Below are positions 2,901 to 6,081 of a DNA stretch of 64,000 nucleotides, in pieces. A program made the position numbers and the translations under genes. Every line of letters begins with the position of its first letter. The stretch's first letter is position 1. The notes beneath the pieces are model-generated. The model ran no database searches and had not been told where the DNA came from. It saw only the letters and a program-made list of their open reading frames with translations. Source of the DNA: Dehalococcoidia bacterium (GTDB taxonomy: Bacteria; Chloroflexota; Dehalococcoidia; DSTF01; JACRBR01); NCBI GenBank assembly GCA_040902535.1, contig JBBDXD010000003.1, positions 94,118 through 158,117 on the forward strand, given 5' to 3'.

Positions 2901-2905
2901 CGTCG

Positions 2906-3436
2906 TTAGTCGCTGAACACCGAAGACAACGGACGAGTCTCCACCAGCGCTAGCTGTCCGGGACGAACGCGAGGCTCGAACACCGCGATAACGTTCCCGA
3001 TGCCCGTCGACGATGGAGCAAGCACACCCTGGTAGATCAAGTAGTGCGCCGTCTCGCCGACGGCCTGGCATGCACGCCGGTCCGACGACTCGATGTCCGC
3101 GAGTGAGAGGCCAACCGCCTCGAGCGAGCCGGGCGCGGTGAGATCGAGCAACTCGATGTTTGTGAGCTGGAACGTGTGTATCGAGCGCGGAGCGAACGAC
3201 GAAGCTCCTCTGGCTTGGGTTTCGGCGACCTTTAGGAACTCCGCCACGCATGTCTCTTCAGGGAACGCCAAATAGACGGTCGAAACGACGTCCGGCGGAT
3301 TCCACCGCCCTCCGAACAGCAGTGCTCCGCGGCCCGACATGGGATCGCGACCGGTAGATGTGTGCCGATATGCGACACCAGACCAACGGGTCGAACCAAG
3401 GTCGCTGACCTGCTGTAGAAGATCCCGCGCCGGCAA
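2906..3436 (-). CDS. RES domain toxin
   Basis: A 176-aa protein with the RES pattern: an early Arg (YRHTS, about residue 24), GGRWNPP at 42-48, a conserved Glu in CVAEF, and a late Ser in APSSTG. Characterised RES toxins (ParT, MbcT) destroy NAD+ or modify a PRPP synthase by an ART-like fold; which of these applies here cannot be told from sequence. The TTG start abuts the stop of the Xre gene with no gap, and GGAG lies about a dozen bases upstream inside that gene, so the pair is co-translated. Base composition is clearly AT-richer than in fakB or the patatin gene, which points to horizontal transfer. Confidence 0.85.
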   Translation of the reverse strand: MPARDLLQQVSDLGSTRWSGVAYRHTSTGRDPMSGRGALLFGGRWNPPDVVSTVYLAFPEETCVAEFLKVAETQARGASSFAPRSIHTFQLTNIELLDLTAPGSLEAVGLSLADIESSDRRACQAVGETAHYLIYQGVLAPSSTGIGNVIAVFEPRVRPGQLALVETRPLSSVFSD

Positions 3437-3775
3437 CTAAGCGACGACTCCGTCCGCAAGCGCCTCGATCAGTGCGAGAACAGTCTTGTAGTCACCGCGG
3501 TGAATGCGTGCCGCGGGAGTGTCACCATCCAGCAGTGCGTTTGGAGAAAAGATCCATACGTTAGCGTCTTCAGGTCGCAAGACACTTGCGAGTTGTTCTC
3601 CAATGAACGCGAGCTCAAGAAGCCGCTGTTTGGTTAGCTTTTGGGGGCGAACGTCACCCGCTGACCATCGTCCTACGGCGCGAGGAGACGAACCGACGAT
3701 TTGCGCCACTTCCTCCTGTGTGAGAGAGAGGTGGTCTGAGAGATAGCGCACTTTTTCTGCAATTGCCGTTGGCAA
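3437..3775 (-). CDS. Xre/MbcA/ParS-type antitoxin
   Basis: A 112-aa antitoxin for the adjacent RES toxin. Residues 15-45 form a helix-turn-helix (LTQEEVAQIVGSSPRAVGRW) and the C-terminal half ends in the toxin-binding part with the family signature of a terminal 'G-x(3)-V-L-x-L-I-E-A-L-A-x-G' stretch (YKTVLALIEALADGVVA). This family represses its own operon and occludes the toxin active site. It starts 16 bases after the stop of the broken upstream gene, so all three genes probably share the promoter at 5021-5050. Confidence 0.85.
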   Translation of the reverse strand: MPTAIAEKVRYLSDHLSLTQEEVAQIVGSSPRAVGRWSAGDVRPQKLTKQRLLELAFIGEQLASVLRPEDANVWIFSPNALLDGDTPAARIHRGDYKTVLALIEALADGVVA

Positions 3776-3791
3776 TGTATTCCTCTCGGTT

Positions 3792-4580
3792 CTAAGCTGA
3801 CTTGGATGCGTCGATTCGTCGGTCTACCTGAGTGAGTAGAGCGTTCATCGTTCGAGTGCCAATCTTCTCTTGCGTCTTAAATTTACGAGTGTATGTCGGA
3901 AGTTGGTGCGCGTTTAGCCTCTCGCGGAACTCGATCGCGGTACGCAAGCGGTCGCGTTCGTGGCTCGGTCGCCACGCCGGCGGATACCTGAGGATCTCCT
4001 CGACCCGAGAGGCCCGGGAATGCAAGTAATGTGCCCGAGGATCGTTCACTGGCGCGTCGATCTGTTTTGCACACCCACCGAGGTCACAGGCCAAACGAGT
4101 GCGAATGGACTCATCAGAGTAGAGTGCTTGCGCCAATCTTCTCGGCACAGTTCCTTCCGCGAGCGGTAGAAAGACACCGGCTGTGGGACCGCCCGAGGGC
4201 TTGGCCTGTCCGGTCAGGCGGCGTTGTCGGCTCATTACACCGGAGTGGTCGAATCGTTCGCGATAGCCGATGCCGGTTGAGTACGCATCAACCACGTTGA
4301 GCGCCAGCGCTGTTTGGCCGATGTCGCCTTGAAACCCGAGCGAGACGCGAATACCTGCTAGCTTGAACGCTTCAAGGATCTCGAACACCGTTGCGACCTT
4401 CCTCGGCCCTTCCTCATCCCCACCGACGGGCGACAGCCGGAGATCAACTGATTCGAGCCCAAGTCGCGAGTATTGGCGGACAGCCGACGCAAGTCGCTCT
4501 GCGTTCCTCAAGGTCGCGAGCGGCGCCGAAAGTATCGCCCTGACAGGTATCCCCTTGCTTCGGAATGCCTGAACAGTCAT
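3792..4580 (-). CDS. C-terminal part of an unrecognised cassette protein (broken by frameshift)
   Basis: A 262-aa frame without a family I recognise. It starts by ATGA overlap with the stop of the frame at 4577-4969, but its frame stays open and protein-like upstream of this ATG back to about 4652 (residues THFY-type text such as VAPHFYAESDGLIEVNQEL). That means the ATG is internal to one longer gene split by a -1 frameshift near 4650-4656. Alternating short beta-like and helical segments (RAILSAPLATL, VDLRLSP, IRVSLGFQGDIG) suggest a TIM-barrel-like fold, then a basic C-terminal tail. It is the first gene of the RES/Xre cassette and shares its low G+C. Confidence 0.65.
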   Translation of the reverse strand: MTVQAFRSKGIPVRAILSAPLATLRNAERLASAVRQYSRLGLESVDLRLSPVGGDEEGPRKVATVFEILEAFKLAGIRVSLGFQGDIGQTALALNVVDAYSTGIGYRERFDHSGVMSRQRRLTGQAKPSGGPTAGVFLPLAEGTVPRRLAQALYSDESIRTRLACDLGGCAKQIDAPVNDPRAHYLHSRASRVEEILRYPPAWRPSHERDRLRTAIEFRERLNAHQLPTYTRKFKTQEKIGTRTMNALLTQVDRRIDASKSA

Positions 4581-4969
4581 TCCAGCGAGTTCTTGGTTAA
4601 CCTCGATGAGGCCGTCCGATTCCGCGTAAAAGTGAGGTGCGACGAGGGTGTTGCGTGTTCAATCTGCGGTCCGACAACCCGCTCTACAAGTTCCACCTGT
4701 TTCGAGGGCTTCGTGAACTCAAAGGGATCAATGGGAAGGGCGTCCCAGTAGTCAAGATTTCCGCCCCTGAAACCAAGTTCAACGAGACGTTCTGTAAGTG
4801 GCTCGACGAGAACCCCGATCCCCTTCGCTCGCGCCGCATCGATGACGACGGAGTGACGCCGGAGGTGGTTCGCGTCAACGATGAACGCGTCGATCCCAAC
4901 GGGCTCGGATGAGATGAACTCATCCGTTACCTTGTGGTCGTCCCTACCCAGGCGGATTTCGAGCCCCAT
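4577..4969 (-). CDS. N-terminal part of the same unrecognised cassette protein
   Basis: The first 106 or so codons read as a normal protein (AFIVDANHLRRHSVVIDA, GIGVLVEPLTERL); after about base 4652 the frame turns into Ser/Thr/Arg-rich shadow text and stops at 4577. Joining codons up to 4652 to the frame of 3792-4580 gives a continuous product of about 392 aa. The ATG at 4969 is preceded by GGGAGA at a good distance; a TTG at 5005 in the same frame is less likely. No classical slippery heptamer lies at the junction, so a true one-base deletion or a sequencing error is more likely than programmed frameshifting. Confidence 0.65.
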   Translation of the reverse strand: MGLEIRLGRDDHKVTDEFISSEPVGIDAFIVDANHLRRHSVVIDAARAKGIGVLVEPLTERLVELGFRGGNLDYWDALPIDPFEFTKPSKQVELVERVVGPQIEHATPSSHLTFTRNRTASSRLTKNSLE

Positions 4970-5020
4970 TAGATCTCTCCCGACATAATGACAGACGATT
5001 AACAAGTCGTTTCAGGCGCC

Positions 5021-5050
5021 ATTGTACAGGACAGAACCACCGCCAGTCAA
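5021..5050 (-). promoter_or_regulatory. Promoter of the RES/Xre cassette
   Basis: On the minus strand TTGACT (5050-5045) and TACAAT (5026-5021) are separated by 18 bases. Transcription would start near 5014 and leave about 45 bases of leader before the ATG at 4969. It is the only good promoter match upstream of the three-gene cassette. MbcA/ParS-type antitoxins normally repress such a promoter, but I see no clear palindrome over it. Confidence 0.65.
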
Positions 5051-5190
5051 CAGCACCCCTTGACACCCACCCCACCCCGATACCCAATCGACACTTGACC
5101 ACCCCGGCCCGCAACCCCCACACTCGCCCGTACGTTATCTTATGTATGGAACAGGAGTGGACTCGGGACCCCGCCGGTAGGGAGCACCAC

Positions 5191-6081
5191 ATGCCCAGGC
5201 AACTCAAGCTCGGTCTCGCCCTCGGCGCCGGCGGCACCAAGGGCGCCGCCCACGTCGGCGTCCTCCGCGTCCTCGAACACGCCGGCATCCGCCCCGATGT
5301 CATCGCCGGCACCAGCGTCGGCAGCCTCTACGGCGGCGCCTTCGCCGTCGGGCGCACCGCCGCCGAGATGGAAGACGGCATCCGCACCTGCCCCCCCAAC
5401 GACGTCATCCAGTTCTTCCGCCACCGCCTCAAGATCCGCCACCGCAACCGCCTCGCCCGACGCTTCTACGAGGCGCTCGCCGGCTGGAACATCGAAGACC
5501 TGCCGATTAAATACGCCGCCACCGCCTCCGACATTGTCGAGCGCGGCCCCGTCGCCATCGACCGCGGCCCCATCATCGATGCCATCGAAGCCAGCATCGC
5601 CATCCCCGTGATCGCCCGCCCCGTGCTCTACCAGGGCCGCTACCTGCTCGACGGCGGGTTCTGGGACAGCGCCCCCGTCGACGCCGCCGTCGGCCTCGGC
5701 GCCGATGTCGTCGTCGCGGTTGAACTCGGCAAGCCCCTCAGCCTGCCCGAAGTCTGTCACCGGCCCGCCGCCTGGATCGCCGGGCGCCTCGCCAAGGCCG
5801 CACTGCACCGCACGATCGCCGGCGTGCCCTTCACACTCCATGCCGCGACGACGCCGCTCAAGCCGGGACGCACCGCCCAGCTCGTCATCCGCCCGCGTGG
5901 CATCTCGCGCATTCGCGGCAACTCGCCCTTCCACATGGTCGACGTGCTCGAAGCCGGCATCGCCGCCGCCGAAGCCGCGCTGCCCTCGATCAAGGCGCTG
6001 CTCGCCGGCGAGCCGCTACCCGCCGAAGCGACCGAACTCATCGCCAACCCCAAGCTAGCCACCGACCTCGGCGCCACCTAA
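5191..6081 (+). CDS. Patatin-like phospholipase (RssA/YlbK type)
   Basis: A 296-aa soluble lipid acyl hydrolase of the patatin fold. Visible residues are the glycine-rich oxyanion motif GAGGTKG (12-18), the nucleophile elbow GTSVG with Ser42, and the catalytic dyad Asp154 in DGGFWDSAP. There is no signal peptide or membrane segment, as in bacterial single-domain patatins of the RssA group. GGAG at 5180-5183 supports the ATG at 5191; the upstream in-frame start at 5095 would add a proline-rich non-conserved stretch. It is monocistronic, divergent from the RES/Xre cassette. The substrate is not known. Confidence 0.88.
   Translation: MPRQLKLGLALGAGGTKGAAHVGVLRVLEHAGIRPDVIAGTSVGSLYGGAFAVGRTAAEMEDGIRTCPPNDVIQFFRHRLKIRHRNRLARRFYEALAGWNIEDLPIKYAATASDIVERGPVAIDRGPIIDAIEASIAIPVIARPVLYQGRYLLDGGFWDSAPVDAAVGLGADVVVAVELGKPLSLPEVCHRPAAWIAGRLAKAALHRTIAGVPFTLHAATTPLKPGRTAQLVIRPRGISRIRGNSPFHMVDVLEAGIAAAEAALPSIKALLAGEPLPAEATELIANPKLATDLGAT

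Follow-up and report, generated by a model that had tools for sequence, protein, structure and literature searches.

RES toxins of the RES/Xre class are NAD+ phosphorylases that are neutralised by an Xre-type antitoxin (PMC11535050 and works cited there). These type II systems, known as MbcTA, ParTS, NatRT or COG5654-COG5642, are two-gene modules in the publications consulted (PMC2701414, PMC11535050, PMC12457610), and the early survey of RES/Xre likewise describes a pair (PMC2701414). According to the NatRT study, the mechanisms that control RES/Xre activity are still not known (PMC11535050). Toxin-antitoxin pairs joined by a third conserved gene have been described for other families, namely SpoIISABC (PMC4926146) and HipBST (PMC6581861). 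The third gene of SpoIISABC encodes a second antitoxin (PMC4926146), and the proteins of both systems are unrelated to those of the cassette analysed here.

Here we analyse a locus in a 64,000-nucleotide stretch of the genome of a Dehalococcoidia bacterium (the window). This locus and its relatives resemble the described RES/Xre systems in the adjacency of a RES gene and an Xre/MbcA/ParS gene, in being often plasmid-borne, and in the retention of the conserved RES residues. The difference is that those published systems consist of two genes, whereas here the pair is accompanied by a third protein of about 385-445 amino acids, the gene of which is broken in the window. It is very likely that the window contains an acquired three-gene cassette, the first gene of which is split, and that the third protein is a co-evolving partner of Xre and RES. 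In the literature searched, beyond which further papers may exist, we found no account of RES/Xre with an additional gene. The third partner appears to be undescribed; the gene break itself is ordinary.

Two open reading frames derived from one gene

On the minus strand, the cassette consists, in this order, of the third gene, the Xre antitoxin gene and the RES toxin gene (Table 1). Two overlapping frames cover the third gene. Frame A runs from the ATG at 4969 to a stop codon at 4577-4579 and encodes family protein up to residue 106, that is, base 4652; the codons past this base are still open, yet do not encode family protein. Frame B runs from the ATG at 4580 to a stop codon at 3792-3794, and the family protein that it encodes begins at base 4652, 24 codons ahead of the first possible start. 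Upstream of ATG 4580, this frame is open to about base 4660, and ATG, GTG and TTG are all absent between the upstream stop and that ATG.

Table 1. Features of the third-gene RES/Xre cassette in the window
Feature	Position	Strand	Remarks
Cassette as insertion	2901..5190		flanked by DegV-family gene (2055-2900, +) and patatin-like gene (5191-6081, +)
RES-domain toxin (NAD+ phosphorylase family), 176 aa, intact	2906..3436	-	PF08808, E = 2e-17, 64 bits (cut-off 23.2 bits)
Xre/MbcA/ParS-type antitoxin, 112 aa, intact	3437..3775	-	TTG start with AGAGGA ahead
Third gene, 3' part (286 codons and stop)	3792..4652	-	profile positions 111-393, E = 1.4e-99
ATGA overlap of frame A stop and first frame B ATG	4577..4580	-	relatives without Met at this position
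-1 frame junction	4650..4664	-	bounded by the last upstream stop of frame B and the loss of homology in frame A
Third gene, 5' part (residues 1-106 of the joined protein)	4652..4969	-	ATG at 4969; profile positions 1-110, E = 3.6e-31
Shine-Dalgarno-like GGGAGAG	4975..4981	-	five bases before ATG 4969; read from the sequence
Putative sigma-70-like promoter, TTGACT - 18 - TACAAT	5021..5050	-	upstream of the third gene; suggestive only (1 found, 0.6 expected by shuffling)

A profile of 11 family rows, one of which is the joined window protein, matched the window in two pieces, 4652-4969 (profile positions 1-110) and 3798-4652 (positions 111-393), with base 4652 common to both. With relatives only, frame A (E = 5e-15) and frame B (E = 2e-64) matched adjoining parts of the same intact proteins. 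The joined window protein could be aligned with its Mycolicibacterium relative across the junction (E = 5e-81), and a tblastn query consisting of both frames with an X at the junction retrieved plasmid-borne, full-length relatives from Mycolicibacterium, Mycobacterium avium, Clavibacter, Gordonia, Rhodococcus and Rhizobiales. Finally, a Viterbi model of codon usage, which was blind to relatives and had long ORFs of the same genome as its only training data, placed a same-strand frame switch at base 4655. Because the matches to relatives, the profile pieces that share a base and the codon model agree, the two ORFs are almost certainly a single gene of the third-protein family that was split by a -1 change, the only defect in the joined frame of 392 codons.

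The original prediction, made from the sequence alone, is borne out in its main points. It had read the frame from 4969 as normal protein to about 4652 and as shadow text thereafter, and it is at 4652 that the first profile piece ends, with the codon model switching at 4655. It had also placed the beginning of the protein in the frame of 3792-4580 at about 4652, ahead of the ATG of that frame, where the second piece starts in a region that is free of start codons. The proposed -1 junction at about 4650-4656, with a product of about 392 residues, coincides with the base at which the two pieces meet. The check that it suggested, a search for full-length homologues, yielded relatives that align over the junction as one protein, none of them ending or beginning at the two frames. 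The constant association of the gene with the RES/Xre pair and the lack of a name for its family were not part of this prediction.

The ATGA overlap had been taken for an accidental resemblance to translational coupling, and we concur because the relatives have no Met at this position. It is far from probable that the locus is a split gene that yields two functional half proteins coupled through this overlap. The ATGA at 4577-4580 and the in-frame ATG of frame B would fit such an arrangement, but frame B has no start before 4580, ATG 4580 is neither conserved nor preceded by a clear Shine-Dalgarno sequence, and no relative is divided here. In addition, the 3' part of the gene encodes predicted strands beta-4 to beta-8, a Cys-x4-Cys...His stretch and the C-terminal helices, and the codons for predicted beta-4 (residues 109-111 in the Mycolicibacterium protein) lie in frame B ahead of the first start of this frame. 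This strand would be missing from both halves, which makes two working halves unlikely. Production of the full protein from the two overlapping frames by programmed -1 frameshifting is the least probable explanation. Both frames are under coding constraint and stand in the right mutual relation; however, an X XXY YYZ slippery heptamer was not found anywhere in frame A, the uninterrupted relatives all consist of one frame, and the site is not conserved among relatives.

The RES/Xre pair and acquisition of the cassette

The window RES protein retains the conserved Arg, Tyr, Glu and Ser of the RES alignment. The Xre protein matched Pfam families PF09722 (E = 4e-4) and PF20432 (E = 9e-4) under the gathering score and NCBIfam model NF049845 (E = 5e-8) under the cut-off, and is homologous over the full length to annotated Xre antitoxins of other cassettes. 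The genome contains one RES gene and one copy of the third gene. The locus thus combines a RES-domain toxin with an adjacent Xre/MbcA/ParS gene, the composition of a RES/Xre system. The two-gene description, which is not a strict requirement, does not apply to this subtype: the third gene is present in 30 of its 30 loci, and we therefore refer to it as a variant of RES/Xre.

The cassette is a horizontally acquired three-gene toxin-antitoxin module. It has a G+C content of 59%, versus 70-71% in the flanking genes, and in two relatives of the same family (loci L043 and L048), the gene order DAK-DegV-patatin is present without the cassette, representing the empty site. A search of the 98 nearest other genomes did not find the third gene, and among 400 genomes of the phylum, nearly all lack it. 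The region upstream of the gene was also searched for an inverted-repeat operator and contained nothing beyond 6-base palindromes.

The third-protein family

The 30 relatives that were examined come from Chloroflexota, Actinomycetota and Alphaproteobacteria. They are encoded by single open frames of about 385-445 codons, with the lone exception of a gene interrupted by an insertion sequence (see below), and in a profile search of the phylum, every strong match besides the window was also one open frame. Two gene arrangements were observed. In most Actinomycetota (mycobacteria, Clavibacter, Rhodococcus and Gordonia bronchialis), the arrangement is divergent, whereas in Chloroflexota, Alphaproteobacteria, Gordonia sp. 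SMJS1 and the window, the third gene, Xre and RES are co-directional. Although the third protein of the window has its nearest relatives in the mycobacterial subfamily, the cassette shows the co-directional order of Chloroflexota and Proteobacteria and not the divergent one of mycobacteria. At least one change of arrangement has occurred in the family.

None of the curated family models in Pfam, NCBIfam, PHROG and PADLOC matched a member of the family above the cut-off or consistently, and a sequence search of the PDB gave no match to the third protein, which appears to represent an undescribed family. Six scans of viral contigs, for which the queries were the joined window protein plus five members or alignments, detected no relative, nor was any found in a phage collection, so that the family looks plasmid- and chromosome-borne. 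A profile scan of genome contigs with the closer family set recovered mycobacterial loci only. Weak matches to 339-aa ORFs (E about 7e-4) of three further Chloroflexota genomes, and one in genome G374, were set aside as probably due to chance.

The partnership of the three genes is constant: Xre and RES are found beside the third gene in all 30 loci carrying it, across three phyla. In the reciprocal search with the window RES, the best 20 plasmid records all carry the third gene, and the two weaker RES matches that were examined (Labrenzia and Sphingomonas) are RES/Xre pairs without it. Pairwise distances are strongly correlated between the third protein and RES (0.966), the third protein and Xre (0.966), and Xre and RES (0.971), compared with 0.46 for the largest of 2000 permutations; these correlations reflect linkage, not contact, and host phylogeny and joint transfer contribute to them. 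It could be argued that the third gene is a passenger that accompanies RES/Xre by chance or through the same mobile elements, given that many cassettes are plasmid-borne and adjoin integrases and partition genes. We consider this improbable, since the association is complete in 30 loci, three phyla and two gene arrangements, RES of this clade and the third gene are found together in 20 plasmid records, and the neighbours outside the three genes are mostly not shared. The third-protein family is likely to be a functional third component of a RES/Xre subtype. As a strictly co-inherited protein that was missed by the family libraries searched, it is a direct candidate for the control of RES/Xre activity.

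Cause of the break and an independent loss

The longest homopolymer at the junction is three bases. With neither a slippery heptamer nor a run of more than three bases, the site does not point to programmed slippage or to the usual kind of homopolymer error. A broken-frame signature, defined as an upstream frame open for at least 30 bases and a downstream frame without ATG or GTG for at least 30 bases after the switch, was detected at three sites in 365 kb of the assembly, one of them that in the window. The two others are located on different contigs of the same genome (L059:4490 on C1 and L064:11545 on C4). With so few signatures per 365 kb, the assembly is not rich in indels.

An assembly or sequencing error, in which case the gene would be intact in the organism and one base would be missing from the contig, is consistent with a single defect in a 392-codon frame that is otherwise perfectly open, with the draft status of the genome (28 contigs), and with the lack of a second copy for comparison. 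This explanation is not favoured, given that the site has no homopolymer longer than three bases, that the signature occurs at only three sites in 365 kb, and that the same gene was broken independently on another replicon. On account of the homopolymer and signature data, we lean towards a real, recent mutation, with an assembly error less likely; with one defect per 392 codons, a mutation, if real, would be recent. Thus, of the three options left by the original prediction, a newly broken gene is favoured over the loss of one base in assembly, and two half proteins are disfavoured. The third gene in the window would then have undergone a recent loss-of-function mutation.

The independent break is found in Mycolicibacterium rufum plasmid NZ_CP103313.1 (L041:896-3627), where an IS256 element splits the third gene near residue 205, leaving two pieces with an overlap of approximately 3 residues, as expected from target-site duplication; the Xre gene there is complete, and the annotated RES has 188 aa. 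This plasmid and the window are two cases of a broken third gene beside a retained pair, and they speak against the third protein as the essential antitoxin of the toxin. In this respect, the cassette differs from SpoIISABC. Such natural loci are ready-made comparisons for the function of the third gene.

Predicted fold of the third protein

AlphaFold2 models of the Mycolicibacterium member were obtained with a shallow alignment of close relatives and are weak, with mean pLDDT of 54 and 60. In the better model, the first 230 residues have pLDDT mostly between 65 and 94 and show a predicted (beta-alpha)8 pattern, in agreement with the TIM-barrel-like pattern noticed in the original prediction. 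In structural alignment, the top match of this model (pLDDT 60) was the tRNA-guanine transglycosylase (TGT) of Zymomonas (Z = 14.5, 203 residues, rmsd 3.4), followed within 1 Z unit by unrelated TIM barrels such as CutC (Z = 13.8); TGT is over-represented in the PDB.

In TGT, the Zn site follows the barrel. Most members of the third-protein family contain a Cys-x4-C(C)...His stretch after the predicted barrel, and the best hhalign path between the family and TGT is collinear, with the Cys...Cys stretch of the family falling on the TGT zinc site; this alignment is not significant (E = 0.13, probability 0.5%). The TGT motif is CxCxxC, whereas the Cys spacing in the family differs, and the cysteines are absent in some members from Rhodobacterales: the branch of the family on plasmids of this order (L038-L040) lacks the Cys-x4-Cys stretch, and its sequence neighbour from Shinella retains a Cys-rich stretch. 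Sequence does not support membership in the TGT family (PF01702), given the lack of a PF01702 match in any member, the hhalign E-value of 0.13 and the lack of the CxCxxC...H zinc site. A relationship of the third protein to TGT is doubtful, and the modelled likeness is regarded as a lead at the fold level only.

The TIM barrels of NAD salvage, nicotinate/nicotinamide phosphoribosyltransferases, were also considered and rejected, with no Pfam match and an hhalign E-value of 0.62 against PF04095 in a comparison of two members only. Divergent TGT paralogues were observed in two Chloroflexota genomes (L074 and L075), the latter of which has a CPCPAC motif and scores weakly in Pfam.

Possible role of the third protein

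From gene neighbourhood and co-evolution only, we infer that the third component may control RES/Xre activity. We envisage a TIM-barrel accessory that would tune or trigger the NAD+-degrading toxin rather than serve as the primary antitoxin; a function as sensor or switch is suggested tentatively. Considering the TGT-like fold of the model and the Cys-x4-Cys...His stretch after the barrel, our leading guess is that the protein might be a base- or nucleotide-handling sensor or enzyme.

In the window, the cassette would have dropped back to a two-gene RES/Xre module. The remaining pair is predicted to be probably still functional because Xre has its own start signal and because the M. rufum plasmid, which lost the same gene, retains Xre in complete form, with RES full-length in the annotation. 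The most speculative reading combines these elements in a tripartite RES/Xre system in which a TGT-fold protein would sense or modify nucleic acid or a nucleotide and thereby control a toxin that destroys NAD+, and single copies could shed the TGT-fold protein and revert to the two-gene module. If this tripartite reading, which we hold with little confidence, is true, the third protein could serve, for example, as a sensor of invaders or as a mark of self.

Annotation and neighbours of plasmid cassettes

Some of the plasmid cassettes are incompletely annotated. In Gordonia bronchialis pGBRO01, RES (L011:3011-3514) is unannotated, and its place is taken in the annotation by a hypothetical protein on the opposite strand. 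The Shinella oryzae record NZ_CP132315.1 is nearly unannotated and contains a complete three-gene cassette (L036:3001-5234). In a Celeribacter ethanolicus plasmid (L040:2950-6810), the cassette is directly followed by qatA of the Qat anti-phage system, and in another Rhodobacterales plasmid (L038), a restriction endonuclease gene follows the cassette.
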